Below the pieces are notes generated by a model that saw nothing but the letters and a program-made list of their open reading frames with translations, did no database searches and had not been told where the DNA came from. This document shows positions 1,586 through 6,842 of a stretch of DNA of 6,842 nucleotides, piece by piece. Made by a program: the position numbers and the translations under genes. This DNA comes from Actinomycetota bacterium (GTDB lineage Bacteria; Actinomycetota; Actinomycetes; Streptosporangiales; Streptosporangiaceae), in assembly GCA_003161205.1 (NCBI GenBank), contig PMOU01000589.1:2866-9707 (forward strand), in the 5' to 3' direction. Position 1 is the stretch's first letter; each line of letters starts with the position of its first letter.

Positions 1586-1602
1586 GGGGATAGCACGTGG
1601 TT

Positions 1603-1768
1603 GCGTCTAGGGTTCCGCTGGCTGTCCGCCAAGCAAACGACACCACACAATCAGGGCGGCCGGGACTGGACCGAGCGACGCCGCGACTCGCTCCCGGGTC
1701 TTAACCGGCCTGCCAGGCCGGGACCCGCCGACCGGGGAACACCTGACGGGATAGAAGCCCTGAGGGCT
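1603..1768 (+). promoter_or_regulatory. ykkC-superfamily riboswitch (guanidine-I-like or ykkC-2 variant)
   Basis: All hallmark blocks of the ykkC RNA family occur in order: CTAGGGTTCC (1607-1616), GGACCGAGCG (1668-1677), ACACC (1739-1743) and GGGATAGAAGCCC (1748-1760). The secondary structure agrees. P1 pairs GCGTC (1603-1607) with GACGC (1677-1681). An inner arm pairs CTGG (1618-1621) with CCGG (1660-1663) and CCGCC (1626-1630) with GGCGG (1655-1659). A separate arm pairs GGGTC (1696-1700) with GACCC (1722-1726), capped by CCGGCCTG/CAGGCCGG (1705-1721). From memory, guanidine-I RNAs carry GGTCCGAGAG and ACACGG, while ykkC-2 variants (ppGpp, PRPP and nucleoside-diphosphate sensors) carry GGACC(G/A)AGCG and ACACC; the present RNA looks more like the latter. 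Two deviations stand out: G1754 where A is usual, and TGAGGG after GCCC instead of GGGAG. The family call is strong; the ligand is unresolved. Confidence 0.85.
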
Positions 1769-1791
1769 CCATTCAGCCTGCCTGAGGAGCC
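1756..1791 (+). promoter_or_regulatory. Expression platform: competing hairpins and sequestered Shine-Dalgarno
   Basis: Two mutually exclusive stems are visible. Stem A pairs AGCCC (1756-1760) with GGGCT (1764-1768) and would break the aptamer's own GGG/CCC pairing (1748-1750 with 1758-1760). Stem B pairs GGCTCC (1765-1770) with GGAGCC (1786-1791), helped by CAG/CTG inside, and covers the GAGGAG Shine-Dalgarno at 1784-1789. There is no U-run, so control of translation rather than termination is likely. Read literally, a folded aptamer disfavours stem A and frees stem B, which would switch expression off; this polarity is an inference by eye. Confidence 0.5.
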
Positions 1792-1794
1792 CCG

Positions 1795-2646
1795 TTGGAC
1801 CCGTCGACCACCCTCCCGCTGACCGTCACCCTCGCCGTCCTCGCCGCCGCCGTCACCCACGCGACCTGGAACGCCATCGCGCACGGCATCAAGGACCAGA
1901 CGCTCGCCTTCGCGCTGATCGGCGTGGGCGGCATCATCGTCGCGATCCCGCTCATCATCGTGGCCGCCACCCCCCGGCCGGCTTGCTGGCCGTATCTGCT
2001 GGCCTCGATCGTGATTCATATCTTCTACAACCTGCTGCTGATGCGGTGCTACCGGCTCGGCGAATTCGGCCAGGTCTACCCGCTGGCCCGGGGCACCTCA
2101 CCGCTGGTGGTGACGATCCTGGCCGCGATCTTCGTGCACGAGCACCTTGGCCTGCCGCAGATCGGCGGGGTGCTCATCGTCTCGGCCGGGCTGGCCACGC
2201 TCGTCCTGGCCGGGCGCCGTCCCGGCCGCGCCGCCTTCCTGGCCGCCATCGCCACCGGCCTGACCATCGCCGCCTACACCACCGTGGACGGCGTGGGCGT
2301 GCGGCTGGCGCACAGTCCGGTGGGCTACATCGGCTGGCTGATGCTGCTCGAGAGCCTCTGCGTCCCGATGTTCGCCCTGATCCGGCGGCGGGACGTGCTG
2401 CTGAAGCAGCCGCCGCGCATCCTGCTGGCCGGCCTGGCCGCGGGGGCGCTGAGCGTGCTCGCCTACGGCCTGGTGCTGTGGGCGCAGACCCGAGGCTCAC
2501 TGGCCCCGATCGCCGCTCTCCGCGAGACGAGTGTCATTTTCGGCGCGATCATCAGCACGCTGATCTTCCGCGAGCCGTTCGGCCGGACCCGCATCGCGGC
2601 CACCGTCCTGGTCGTGGCCGGCATCGTGCTGCTCAATATTGGCTAG
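1795..2646 (+). CDS. EamA/DMT-superfamily transporter under riboswitch control
   Basis: This 283-residue integral membrane protein has the two-repeat layout of the drug/metabolite transporter superfamily, about ten hydrophobic segments. The first EamA repeat spans about residues 8-138 (VTHATWNAIAH in segment 1; QVYPLARGTSPLVV in the middle). The second spans about 146-282 (ALRETSVIFGAIISTLIFREPFG near the end). The start is the TTG at 1795, supported by GAGGAG 5 nt upstream and by the protein beginning directly before the first membrane segment. Family members usually export small metabolites such as amino acids, amines or guanidinium-like compounds across the inner membrane; the substrate cannot be read from this sequence. 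The preceding ykkC-type leader suggests that the gene answers to a small cytoplasmic ligand, guanidine or a nucleotide-type signal, and this is the best clue to function. Confidence 0.85.
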   Translation: MDPSTTLPLTVTLAVLAAAVTHATWNAIAHGIKDQTLAFALIGVGGIIVAIPLIIVAATPRPACWPYLLASIVIHIFYNLLLMRCYRLGEFGQVYPLARGTSPLVVTILAAIFVHEHLGLPQIGGVLIVSAGLATLVLAGRRPGRAAFLAAIATGLTIAAYTTVDGVGVRLAHSPVGYIGWLMLLESLCVPMFALIRRRDVLLKQPPRILLAGLAAGALSVLAYGLVLWAQTRGSLAPIAALRETSVIFGAIISTLIFREPFGRTRIAATVLVVAGIVLLNIG

Positions 2647-3684: not shown

Positions 3685-5118
3685 TCAGGTACCGATGTAG
3701 CTCATGACGTGCTTGATGCGGGTGTAGTCCTCGAAGCCGTACATGGACAGGTCCTTGCCGTAGCCGGAGTGCTTGAAGCCCCCGTGCGGCATCTCCGCGA
3801 CGATCGGGATGTGGGTGTTGATCCACACCGCGCCGAAGTCCAGGCGCTTGGCCATCCTCATCGCGCGGCCGTGGTCCTTGGTCCACACGCTCGAGGCGAG
3901 CCCGTACTTGACCCCGTTCGCCCACCGGAGCGCCTCGTCCTCGTCGGTGAACCGCTGGACGGTGATGACCGGGCCGAAGACCTCGTCCTGGATCAGCTCG
4001 TCGTCCTGCCGCAGCCCGGAGACGACGGTGGGGGCGTACAGGTACCCGCGCTCCCCCACCCGGTGTCCGCCCGCGACCACCTCGGCGTGGTCGGGGGCGC
4101 GCGCGATGAAGCCCTGGACGCGGGCGAGCTGGTTCGGGTTGTTCAGCGGGCCGAAGTAGGCGTCGGGCACGTCCAGGCCGCCGGTCGTGGTGTTGTTGGC
4201 CTGCTCGGCCAGCGCGGCGGTCAGGTCGGCGGCGATGCCCGGGCCGGCCAGCACGCGGGTCGCGGCGGTGCAGTCCTGCCCGGCGTTGAAGTAGCCGGCC
4301 CCGGCGATGCCCTCCGCGGTCGCCTCGACATCGGCGTCGTCGAAGACCACGACCGGCGCCTTGCCGCCCAGCTCGAGGTGGACCTTCTTCAGGTCATCCG
4401 CGGCCGCGCGGGCGACCTCCATGCCCGCCCGGACCGAGCCGGTGATCGAGACCATGCTCGGCGTGGGGTGCGAGATCAGGTCCCGGCCCGTGTCCCGGTC
4501 GCCGCAGATGACGTTGAACACGCCGGGCGGCAGGAACTCGGCGGCGATCTCCGCCATCAGCAGGGTGGACACCGGGGTGGTGTCGGACGGCTTGAGCACG
4601 ACGGTGTTACCGGCCGCGATGGCCGGCGCGAACTTCCACACCGCCATCATCATCGGGTAGTTCCACGGCGTGACCTGGGCGCAGACGCCGATAGGCTCGC
4701 GCCGGATCATGGAGGTGTGGTCCCGCATGTACTCACCGGCGCTGCGGCCCTCCAGGACGCGCGCGGCGCCGGCGAAGAACCTGATCTGGTCCACCGCGGG
4801 CGGGATCTCCTCCGACGCCGTCAGCGCGACGGGCTTGCCCGTGTTGCGGGTCTCGGCCTCGATGATCTGGTCGGCGTGCTTTTCGATCGCGTCAGCGAAC
4901 CTGAACAGGGCCAGGCTGCGCTCGGACGGGGTGCTGTCCCGCCAGCCCTCGAACGCGTTCGCCGCGGCCTGCATCGCGGCGTCCACGTCCTGGCGGCTTG
5001 ATATCGGCGCCTGGGCGTAGACCTCACCGGTACTTGGGTCGATGACATCGCTGGTGCGCCCATCGCCGGCGTCGGTGAACTTGCCGTTGACAAAGTTCTG
5101 CAGCGTGCGGTCCGTCAT
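3685..5118 (-). CDS. Gamma-aminobutyraldehyde dehydrogenase-type NAD(P)-dependent aldehyde dehydrogenase
   Basis: This 477-residue protein has the full length and all key residues of the aldehyde dehydrogenase superfamily: Asn153 in PWNYP, Lys176 in LKPSD, Glu249 in LELGGK and the nucleophile Cys283 in GQDCTAA. The stretches [21 protein letters not shown] and [11 protein letters not shown] closely resemble E. coli gamma-aminobutyraldehyde dehydrogenase (PatD), which oxidises 4-aminobutanal to GABA in putrescine breakdown. The EVFGPV motif near the C-terminus is also present. The ATG at 5118 is chosen because GGAGG lies 6 nt upstream and [12 protein letters not shown] is the expected N-terminus; an extension to 5214 has no support. 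It is divergent from the Lrp regulator and aminotransferase, which fits a transaminase-then-dehydrogenase pathway. Substrate is inferred; betaine-aldehyde-like activity cannot be excluded. Confidence 0.88.
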
Positions 5119-5314
5119 GCCGAGCCTCCATCCGCGGAGTGTCCTGCCCCACTTCAGTGCCATCACCCGCCGTGAAACCTTATGACGAGCTTCGCAGAGA
5201 TGGACTATCTCCACAAGTGATTCAGTTGCTATCTTTACATATACCTACGAAATCAGTTGACTAGGGTAGGCGGACATAAAGGTGGACGCCAGTCAGGCGA
5301 ACGAGGGGGACCGC
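5119..5314. promoter_or_regulatory. Divergent regulatory region with TCAGTTG repeats
   Basis: This 196-bp region separates the aldehyde dehydrogenase and Lrp genes and is much richer in A/T than its surroundings between about 5215 and 5280. TCAGTTG occurs twice in the same orientation, at 5222-5228 and 5253-5259, 31 bp apart (about three helical turns), each followed closely by CTA. The second copy abuts TAGGGT (5262-5267), a plausible actinomycete -10 box for the regulator. GAGAT (5197-5201) and ATCTC (5207-5211) form a further small inverted repeat. These are candidate operators for the adjacent Lrp-type protein, which commonly autoregulates and controls its divergent neighbour. Confidence 0.45.
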
Positions 5315-5803
5315 ATGGCGCATAGCCCGAGGACGCTCCCGGCCCATGGTCCTGGCGGTGCCGTCCTCGACGACGTCTCGAAGCAGATCATCGAGCAGCT
5401 GCAGCAGGACGGCCGGCGGTCCTATGCGGCGATCGGCAAGGCCGTGGGGCTTTCCGAGGCCGCCGTCCGGCAGCGCGTGCAGCGCCTGCAGGACGCCGGG
5501 GTGATGCAGATCGTCGCGGTCACCGATCCGCTCATGCTCGGCTTCCGGCGCCAGGCCATGATCGCGATCAAGATCGACGGCGACCTGGACAAGGTGGCCA
5601 GCCAGCTGGCTGACATGGAGGAAATCGACTACGTCGTCATCACCGCCGGCTCCTTTGACATGCTCGCGGAGGTCGTCTGCGAGGACGACGACGACCTCCT
5701 GGAGATCCTGGGCCGGGTGCGCGCCGTGCCGTGCGTGACCAGCACCGAGACATTCGTTTACCTCAAGCTCCGCAAGCAAACCTACTCATGGGGAACCAGA
5801 TGA
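5315..5803 (+). CDS. Lrp/AsnC-family transcriptional regulator
   Basis: The 162-residue protein has the two-domain build of Lrp/AsnC regulators. An N-terminal winged helix-turn-helix (about 19-66) starts at LDDVSKQIIEQLQQDGRRSY and has the recognition helix SEAAVRQRVQRLQDAG. A C-terminal RAM ligand-binding and oligomerisation domain (about 79-152) includes the effector-loop segment ITAGSFDMLAEVVCEDDDDL. The start at ATG 5315 is preferred because GAGGGGG lies just upstream; the in-frame GTG at 5282 has no proper ribosome site. The TGA stop overlaps the aminotransferase ATG by 4 nt (ATGA), so the two genes form an operon. Local position suggests control of the polyamine/amino-acid catabolic genes on both sides, possibly with an amine or amino acid as effector (inference). 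Confidence 0.92.
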   Translation: MAHSPRTLPAHGPGGAVLDDVSKQIIEQLQQDGRRSYAAIGKAVGLSEAAVRQRVQRLQDAGVMQIVAVTDPLMLGFRRQAMIAIKIDGDLDKVASQLADMEEIDYVVITAGSFDMLAEVVCEDDDDLLEILGRVRAVPCVTSTETFVYLKLRKQTYSWGTR

Positions 5804-6842
5804 CCTCCTCCTTCGACGCCTCCGACGCCGTCGAGCCAGTGGCAATCGACCCGGACGCAATCGAGGCAGCACAGGACGCCGCCAAGCGCAATCTCTGGCT
5901 GCATTTCACCCGGATGTCCGCCTACTCCGACAGCGACGTCCCCGTGATCGTCCGCGGCTCCGGGGCTTACGTCTTCGACCAGCGCGGCAAGCGTTACCTG
6001 GACGGGCTGTCCGGCCTGTTCGTCAGCCAGGTCGGCCACGGGCGGAAGGAGATCGCCGAGGCGGGCGCGCGGCAGGCGGAGGAGCTGGCGTACTTCCCGC
6101 TGTGGTCCTACGCCCACCCCAAGGCGATCGAGCTGGCCGCCCGGCTGGCTGACCTGGCCCCGGGCGACCTGAACCGGGTGTTCTTCACCACCAGCGGCTC
6201 GGAGGCGGTCGAGTCGGCGTGGAAGCTGGCCAAGCAGTACTTCAAGCTGACCGGCCAGCCGGAACGGTACAAGGTCATCAGCCGCGAGCTCGCCTACCAC
6301 GGCACGTCCATGGGCGCGCTCGCGATCACCGGCCTGGCCGACATCAAGTACCCGTTCGAGCCGCTGCCGCCCGGCGGCGTCCGGGTGCCGAACACCAACT
6401 TCTACCGGGCCCCCGGGTTCGTCCGCGATGACCTCGAGGGGTTCGGCGCGTGGGCCGCGGATGAGATCGAGCGGGCGATCCTGCGCGAGGGACCGCAGTC
6501 GGTCGCCGCCGTCTACCTGGAGCCGGTGCAGAACTCCGGCGGCTGCTTCCCGCCGCCGCCCGGGTACTTCCAGCGGGTCAGGGAGATCTGCGACCGGTAC
6601 GGCGTGCTGCTCGTGTCCGACGAGGTGATCTGCGCCTTCGGGCGGCTCGGCTACTACTTCGGCTCCGAGCGCTACGGGTACCAGCCGGACATCATCACCT
6701 TCGCCAAGGGACTGACGTCCGGGTACTCCCCGATGGGCGGGATGCTGGTCAGGGACGCCCTGATGGAACCGTTCACCGCGGGAACCGCCACGTTCCTGCA
6801 CGGCATCACGTTCGCCGGCCATCCGGTGTCCGCCGCGGTGGC
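5800..6842 (+). CDS. Class III PLP-dependent aminotransferase (aspartate aminotransferase family, putative diamine/omega-amino acid), partial
   Basis: The frame is open from ATG 5800 to the right edge (347 codons plus 2 nt), so about a quarter of a typical 450-residue protein is missing. It shows the fold-type I, class III signature: TTSGSEAVES (about 130-139) for PLP phosphate binding, YHG (166-168) for ring stacking, Glu241 in YLEPVQ, Asp274 in VSDEVICAFGR, and the Schiff-base Lys303 in FAKGLTSGYSPMGG. Related enzymes transaminate putrescine, GABA, beta-alanine or similar omega-amines. The neighbouring gamma-aminobutyraldehyde dehydrogenase makes a putrescine or related amine substrate the best guess. 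GGGGAA 4 nt upstream and the ATGA overlap with the Lrp gene support this start; an in-frame ATG at 5788 is the alternative. Confidence 0.9.
   Translation, partial: MTSSFDASDAVEPVAIDPDAIEAAQDAAKRNLWLHFTRMSAYSDSDVPVIVRGSGAYVFDQRGKRYLDGLSGLFVSQVGHGRKEIAEAGARQAEELAYFPLWSYAHPKAIELAARLADLAPGDLNRVFFTTSGSEAVESAWKLAKQYFKLTGQPERYKVISRELAYHGTSMGALAITGLADIKYPFEPLPPGGVRVPNTNFYRAPGFVRDDLEGFGAWAADEIERAILREGPQSVAAVYLEPVQNSGGCFPPPPGYFQRVREICDRYGVLLVSDEVICAFGRLGYYFGSERYGYQPDIITFAKGLTSGYSPMGGMLVRDALMEPFTAGTATFLHGITFAGHPVSAAV

Follow-up and report, generated by a model that had tools for sequence, protein, structure and literature searches.

A candidate ykkC subtype 2d riboswitch in the 5' leader of an actinomycete EamA exporter gene

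The stretch of DNA analysed here, which we call the window, is 6,842 nucleotides long and contains an EamA/DMT exporter gene preceded on the same strand by a segment (1597-1770) that is a real structured RNA and, judged by its marker residue and downstream gene, a candidate riboswitch of ykkC subtype 2d. The features of the RNA and its surroundings are:

1597..1770, + strand: ykkC subtype 2d aptamer (candidate), from the sub-threshold RF00442 match, conservation before EamA homologues and covariance models R1-R3
1603..1607, + strand: P1 5' strand GCGUC, pairing with 1677-1681
1607-1617, + strand: block 1, CTAGGGTTCCG, read in the sequence
1618..1627, + strand: P1b 5' strand CUGGCUGUCC, pairing with 1654-1663
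1666-1677, + strand: block 2, CTGGACCGAGCG, read in the sequence
1666..1681, + strand: CUGGACCGAGCG block and P1 3' strand, with C1676 at the conserved guanidine-I A
1683..1737, + strand: variable P2 region, long in the window and nearly absent in L004 (alignments A1, A2)
1739-1743, + strand: block 3, ACACC, read in the sequence
1739..1766, + strand: ACACC and P3, covariation in 26 sequences
C1742-G1766 and C1743-G1765, + strand: lowest pairs of P3
1744-1747 (UGAC) and 1761-1764 (UGAG), + strand: internal loop of P3
1748-1750 (GGG) and 1758-1760 (CCC), + strand: P3 stem, with loop AUAGAAG
1748-1760, + strand: block 4, GGGATAGAAGCCC, read in the sequence
1764..1792, + strand: likely expression platform, in which GGGCUCC (1764-1770) can pair with GGAGCCC (1786-1792)
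1795..2646, + strand: EamA/DMT exporter gene, 283 aa, TTG start; PF00892
2688-3125, - strand: PIN-domain protein
3685-5214, - strand: aminobutyraldehyde dehydrogenase
5282-5803, + strand: Lrp/AsnC regulator
5731-6840, + strand: class III aminotransferase

The dehydrogenase, Lrp/AsnC and aminotransferase genes are perhaps an amine catabolism group, and the PIN-domain protein may be the toxin component in a toxin-antitoxin system. The product of the exporter gene scores 76.1 bits against PF00892 (Pfam cut-off 28.2), and its TTG start corresponds to ATG in the related loci L003 and L077. The most similar NCBIfam family is TIGR03340, phn_DUF6, at 127.7 bits; the similarity runs over nearly the full length but lies below the curated cut-off of 288.15, and the protein is hence not an equivalog of that family.

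All four ykkC family blocks occur in the expected order within the RNA, on the three-hairpin scaffold that characterizes the family. When the whole window was compared with the 4227 families of Rfam 15, RF00442 (Guanidine-I) was the sole ykkC-family model to match (1596-1767, + strand, 29.6 bits, E 0.024); matches to mir-493 and sR28 were at chance level and were set aside. The covariance check envisaged in an earlier sequence-only reading of this DNA thus returned a family model, but one whose gathering cut-off is 63, and taken alone this sub-threshold score is weak support. We therefore considered how the RNA is distributed. EamA homologues gathered by protein similarity alone yielded 80 loci, and in seven of these (L001-L006 and L077, from Nocardiopsis, Streptosporangiaceae, Trebonia, Actinomadura and Nocardiopsaceae) the same blocks lie no more than 200 bases upstream, with compensatory changes. 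In the remaining 73 loci, largely from Streptomyces, the RNA was absent by pattern or by model R1 (E 0.01), the best R1 score being 18.8 bits at L053. Because the blocks recur, with compensatory changes, ahead of homologues that were selected by their proteins, the RF00442 match is not a product of chance. Aligned together (A1, A2), the eight RNAs, window included, have conserved blocks and changing helices.

Covariance-model searches extended the collection, with matches in 12 of the 297 genomes searched in one order, 13 of 396 genomes of the phylum and, in further sets, 7 of 198, 11 of 138, 8 of 39 and 48 of 200. The window belongs to the training set of models R1-R3, and its own scores from them are not independent. 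Since the matches include other ykkC types, they were sorted by eye on sequence and downstream gene together. The 200-genome search gave 54 places, 24 of them without a locus; one of these, L197, was classified later and 23 were left unclassified. The sorted and aligned loci comprise 52 RNAs of the window's type (window included), 12 of guanidine-I and nine of a guaA-associated type, with L116 and L134 dropped, as no motif was seen in them; guanidine-I loci L111-L115, L117-L120, L123, L124 and L136 stand outside alignment A5. One genome (G002) has two copies, L002 before an EamA gene and L081 before a TauE-type gene. We also considered, and rejected, a presence of 2d in the phylum to which the Proteobacteria locus L078 belongs: 10 of 398 genomes matched, nine being guanidine-I by eye and the other, L116, chance-like.

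Two other groups of RNA came to light in this sorting. Canonical guanidine-I RNAs occur at L107-L110, L124, L135, L137, L138, L111-L115 and L117-L120, followed, by eye, by agmatinase-like or isochorismatase-like genes in Actinomycetota and by an ABC substrate-binding protein gene in the Proteobacteria search. In one Actinomycetota order, a ykkC-2-type RNA (L154, L155, L156, L158, L159, L160, L164, L165 and L167, at about 1500-1625 in each) precedes what appears by eye to be guaA (GMP synthase); it has the C marker discussed below, and its GACCG, facing CGGUC or CGGUU, may form a P0 helix. The available portion of PMC5912903 places its 257 PRPP examples in Firmicutes without mention of guaA, and the open-licence PMC literature matches listed include none that joins ykkC and guaA; the guaA-associated RNA is possibly an unreported subtype.

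The genes that follow RNAs of the window's type are strikingly uniform. Of 50 downstream proteins tested, window included, 43 are EamA and six are TauE by Pfam, a tally of adjacency only; ten relatives contributed seven EamA and three TauE, and another 39 contributed 35 EamA, three TauE and one protein that is neither. The proteins of L005 and L090 are outside the 50, those of L077, L133 and L147 are partial, and the reading frames of the L102 EamA gene and the L081 TauE gene seem to be disrupted, one piece of each having been scanned. TIGR03340 matches 33 of the 50 (28 of the 39, four of the ten, and the window), the six printed scores lying between 104 and 128 bits, all below the cut-off. 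Downstream of the RNAs at L104-L106, and by eye also at L125-L133, lies a second EamA subfamily; it is nearest to TIGR00950 and below the cut-off of that family where scores were printed. Behind the RNA of L090 / L172 comes just a short EamA-like start that runs into unrelated sequence, either a remnant or an assembly joint. The RNA at L197 (6014-6122, - strand) resembles the set in its C marker and in CAUCUGA; where the others have GAG it reads UAG, and an MFS-like transporter gene lies downstream by eye. It is not counted among the 52; were it a member, it would break the EamA/TauE rule. Perhaps it is another variant, or points to a third family of exporters.

The proposed helices are borne out by covariation. 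Two of the five P1 pairs vary on both sides while 100% of their cells remain paired, and in helix 3 (P1a and P1b) nine of 13 pairs show changes on both sides in 26 sequences. Paired cells make up 97.5% in 18 sequences, against a mean of 85.8% after shuffling and 30-54% with slid partners; in 26 sequences standard pairs fill 96.8% of 620 cells, where shuffling gives a mean of 82.3%, and the covariation score of 0.384 compares with 0.129 for shuffled and 0.041-0.079 for slid versions, all to be read with the knowledge that alignments A3-A5 were fitted to the model structure, which favours it. At the base of P3, the counterpart of C1742-G1766 is C-G in 17 sequences, U-A in five, A-U in two and G-C in two, and the adjacent pair is A-U rather than C-G in L151 and L152. 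GAGCG and several residues of the P3 loop are invariant in 26 of 26 sequences while the helices covary. The P3 internal loop of the window's type reads UNA in 50 of 52 RNAs (the exceptions are L149 and L131) opposite GAG in all 52, and in the 3' strand of P3 this inner GAG alone is fixed.

The sequence-only reading had described four family blocks in order with matching stems between 1603 and 1768. The blocks and stems are all present, the covariation exceeds that of both controls, and the element is real, although its limits are better drawn at 1597-1770 for the aptamer and at about 1797 with the platform. Two departures from consensus that it had remarked upon disappear in the larger alignment: the position of G1754 tolerates A or G, with G also in L001, L002, L104, L128, L131 and L149, and the TGAGGG that follows is one usual form of the P3 3' strand.

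Alignment of the pocket positions, which that reading had singled out, places C1676 opposite the A of guanidine-I. The accessible part of PMC6031431 presents the residue at this position as the marker dividing guanidine-I from subtype 2, and all 52 RNAs of the window's type have C there, as do all nine guaA-type RNAs, while the 12 guanidine-I RNAs all have A. According to the sections available of a 2020 review (PMC7266159), subtype 2d is the single orphan among the ykkC subtype 2 RNAs and controls EamA (originally phn_DUF6) and TauE transporter genes, its ligand being undetermined; a link between 2d and phn_DUF6 is also drawn in the part available of PMC5912903. By its gene association, which matches this published description, and by its marker residue, we place the window RNA in subtype 2d, membership here meaning gene association and marker rather than agreement with the published consensus. 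Against this assignment, C1676 and C1743 look like subtypes 2a and 2b, whereas the 2d consensus, as given in the available text of PMC5912903, is closest to guanidine-I. The apparent departures from consensus are common to other RNAs of the window's type, and a new subtype is thus not needed. The earlier conclusions that the RNA is a ykkC-2 variant rather than guanidine-I and that it precedes a DMT exporter gene are therefore upheld; the further idea of a variant with an unassigned ligand ahead of an exporter also holds, but the combination already has a name. In other words, the class is documented, and the window RNA is another example of a known orphan subtype. No ligand for 2d was found in the open-licence PMC literature, and one may be reported elsewhere.

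The leader between aptamer and gene suggests how such an RNA might act. The helix that the aptamer tail and the ribosome-binding site (RBS) could form would cover the Shine-Dalgarno sequence GGAG (1786-1789) and shares G1765 and G1766 with P3; the expression platform likely reaches about 1797. A helix of at least six pairs between these elements is found in 19 of the 25 leaders examined, out of 52 known, against 8.5 expected with shuffled RBS letters and a maximum of 17 in 1000 simulations. Its sequence varies together with that of its partner, for example as GGACCC/GGGUCC in L099. The six-pair helix is absent in the other six leaders examined (L006, L096, L098, L104, L105 and L106), with maxima of zero, five and four hiding pairs in L104, L105 and L106, respectively. 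When P3 is forced in a model of the window, four of the seven hiding pairs remain, still over GGAG, and the unconstrained fold is 5.5 kcal/mol lower than the one with forced P3. Because these four pairs persist, release of the RBS is not shown in the window model.

We suggest the following sequence of events. As long as no ligand is bound, the GGGCUCC segment that closes the aptamer on its 3' side would pair with GGAGCCC and hide the Shine-Dalgarno sequence. Binding of a small molecule by the aptamer (P1/P1a/P1b, P2 and P3) would stabilize P3, and because G1765 and G1766 are used by both structures, the hiding hairpin would become shorter and weaker and ribosomes could start. As the ligand accumulates, more exporter would be made. 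Such a translational ON switch fits the guanidine, PRPP and ppGpp members, which are described as ON switches in the available portion of PMC6031431. Thus the RNA probably turns on a membrane exporter when a small molecule builds up, and we hold with good confidence, from comparative sequence evidence, that the 5' leader of this EamA exporter gene contains a riboswitch of the orphan ykkC subtype 2d, for which we propose a translational ON mechanism.

A sharper form of this explanation names the ligand. It could be an organophosphonate or a closely related reduced-phosphorus compound, bound near the site that holds phosphate in the PRPP aptamer, with EamA and TauE proteins removing the compound or its toxic excess; we regard this as a speculative proposal that is rather unlikely to be correct as it stands. 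Its main attraction comes from the order of genome G524, where all five loci (L205-L209) have phosphonate genes about 1-10 kb from the RNA and EamA gene by tblastn. These encode a PhnF-like regulator, PhnD, PhnC, PhnE, a PhnX-like hydrolase and the dehydrogenase HpnZ. The PhnD-type binding protein exceeds the TIGR01098 cut-off in all five; PhnC (TIGR02315, cut-off 266.1) scores 285.6 and 293.3 in the two loci scanned, and PhnE (TIGR01097, cut-off 216.7) scores 422.1 in the one scanned. HpnZ (TIGR03366, cut-off 328.1) reaches 389.5 in L205 and 371.8 in L206, with 207.3 for a cut-off piece in L208; the PhnX-like protein (TIGR03351, cut-off 218.9) falls just short at 216.1 in L208, with 125.6 for a piece in L207, and the regulator is below the PhnF cut-off. 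The EamA gene adjoins and faces the regulator gene directly in L205 and L206, and 1.6-2.3 kb of differing genes lie between the two in L207-L209. HpnZ occurs in 21 of 198 genomes of this order (E 1e-60), and all five 2d genomes are among the 21 (hypergeometric 8.4e-6, uncorrected for kinship). Some support also comes from the phn_DUF6 matches described above and from the residues that hold the 5-phosphate of PRPP, G48, C49 and C78 in the excerpt available of PMC6031431, which the window apparently retains as G1675, C1676 and C1743 if the numbering is transferred by alignment.

Other findings weigh against the proposal. Only 14 of the 198 genomes exceed the HpnZ cut-off, including just three of the five with 2d, and L205-L209 are one lineage. 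In 11 clusters examined from the 16 HpnZ genomes that have no 2d, neither the RNA nor the EamA gene was present. The printed phn_DUF6 scores are all sub-threshold, and the counterpart of C78 and C1743 is A in L151 and L152. The neighbourhoods compared numbered 37, belonging to 36 of the 52 RNAs and to L197; in the 32 outside L205-L209, several of them ended by the contig, PhnD, PhnE, PhnF-like, PhnX-like and HpnZ genes were not found, the matches there being only distant PhnC-like ATPases. In other orders PhnE is present in 15 of 41 2d genomes and in 17 of 39 genomes without a match (Fisher p 0.65), or in 8 of 41 and 4 of 39 above the family cut-off (p 0.35), positives and negatives being unbalanced by order. 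As PhnE is not enriched, a genome-wide link between 2d and phosphonate uptake outside the one order was rejected; recurrent neighbours elsewhere (hemL, cytochrome c biogenesis and rpsT/lepA, by eye) were judged to be conserved gene order. We thus offer a phosphonate ligand as one testable idea and no conclusion; were it true, the last orphan of the ykkC family would gain its ligand and a phosphonate riboswitch would be defined. The loci L225-L235 are clusters of PhnD-PhnC-PhnE, PhnX-like and HpnZ genes, all five genes being present in 9 of 11, that lack the riboswitch exporter.

Sensing of ppGpp, PRPP or a nucleoside diphosphate, as in subtypes 2a-2c, would agree with the pyrimidine marker C1676 and with ACACC, which match residues described for the PRPP aptamer in the available part of PMC6031431 when the numbering is carried over by alignment. 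We nevertheless consider it improbable. EamA or TauE genes lie downstream in 49 of 50 cases, with no amino acid, purine or Nudix genes, and in the window itself the EamA gene takes the place both of the amino acid and purine genes expected for PRPP and ppGpp riboswitches and of the Nudix or HAD hydrolase genes expected for the nucleoside diphosphate riboswitches of subtype 2c. No P0 helix joining the 5' flank to the 3' flank was seen by eye in the window or in alignments A1 and A2, whereas the nine guaA-type RNAs offer a P0-like pairing.

Still less likely is a diverged guanidine-I riboswitch whose EamA protein exports guanidine. The sole ykkC-family match in Rfam is to that model, and the accessible portion of PMC5912903 both sets the 2d consensus nearest to guanidine-I and places phn_DUF6 and the guanidine transporters in one superfamily. 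Yet the RF00442 scores of 22 RNAs of the window's type run from 29.6 to 53.2 bits and three more (L092, L094 and L096) give no match at E 0.1, whereas the guanidine-I RNAs L107, L108 and L110 score 68-82; the Rfam guanidine-I cut-off thus misses 25 of 25 scanned RNAs of the window's type. The marker A is C throughout, CANCUNA stands in place of CACGG in 48 of 52, and the guanidine-I pocket (A at position 46, with CACGG/GGGAG) is not that of the window RNA. Genes after guanidine-I RNAs are, by eye, agmatinase-like, isochorismatase-like, permease or ABC substrate-binding genes, with no EamA or TauE. By score and marker residue, we reject membership of the window RNA in guanidine-I. A structured leader that acts independently of ligand, as a constitutive structure or bound by protein, would suit a subtype that had no known ligand in the 2020 review, as far as its available sections go (PMC7266159), but is hardly credible given the aptamer-like pattern of invariant GAGCG and P3 loop residues amid covarying helices, and relatives on the same scaffold that the portions available of PMC7266159, PMC5912903 and PMC6031431 present as validated riboswitches.

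The subtype 2d assignment can finally be set against the known systems. With guanidine-I (RF00442) the window RNA shares the P1/P1a/P1b architecture, CUAGGGUUCCG and the GGGAUAAAAGCCC hairpin; it differs by C in place of A46 and by its score under the Rfam cut-off, and the window's type has CACC-UGAC for CACGG and NGAGG for GGGAG. With the PRPP (2b) and ppGpp (2a) riboswitches, as described in the available part of PMC6031431, it shares a pyrimidine at the position of residue 49 and a strand of ACACC type; it differs in having no P0 by eye, in the UNA/GAG loop of P3 and in the exporter gene downstream. The closest likeness is to ykkC subtype 2d itself, as the accessible parts of PMC5912903 and PMC7266159 portray it: a ykkC scaffold with a marker other than that of guanidine-I, located before EamA (phn_DUF6-like) or TauE genes, and an orphan. 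To that picture the present set adds a second EamA subfamily, a covarying base to P3, a possible translational platform and a related RNA before an MFS-like gene. Each well-defined 2d member, together with its exporter, narrows the search for the ligand, and the pocket signatures of the 52 members, the possible translation readout and the phosphonate-cluster link in one lineage make a short ligand panel feasible.
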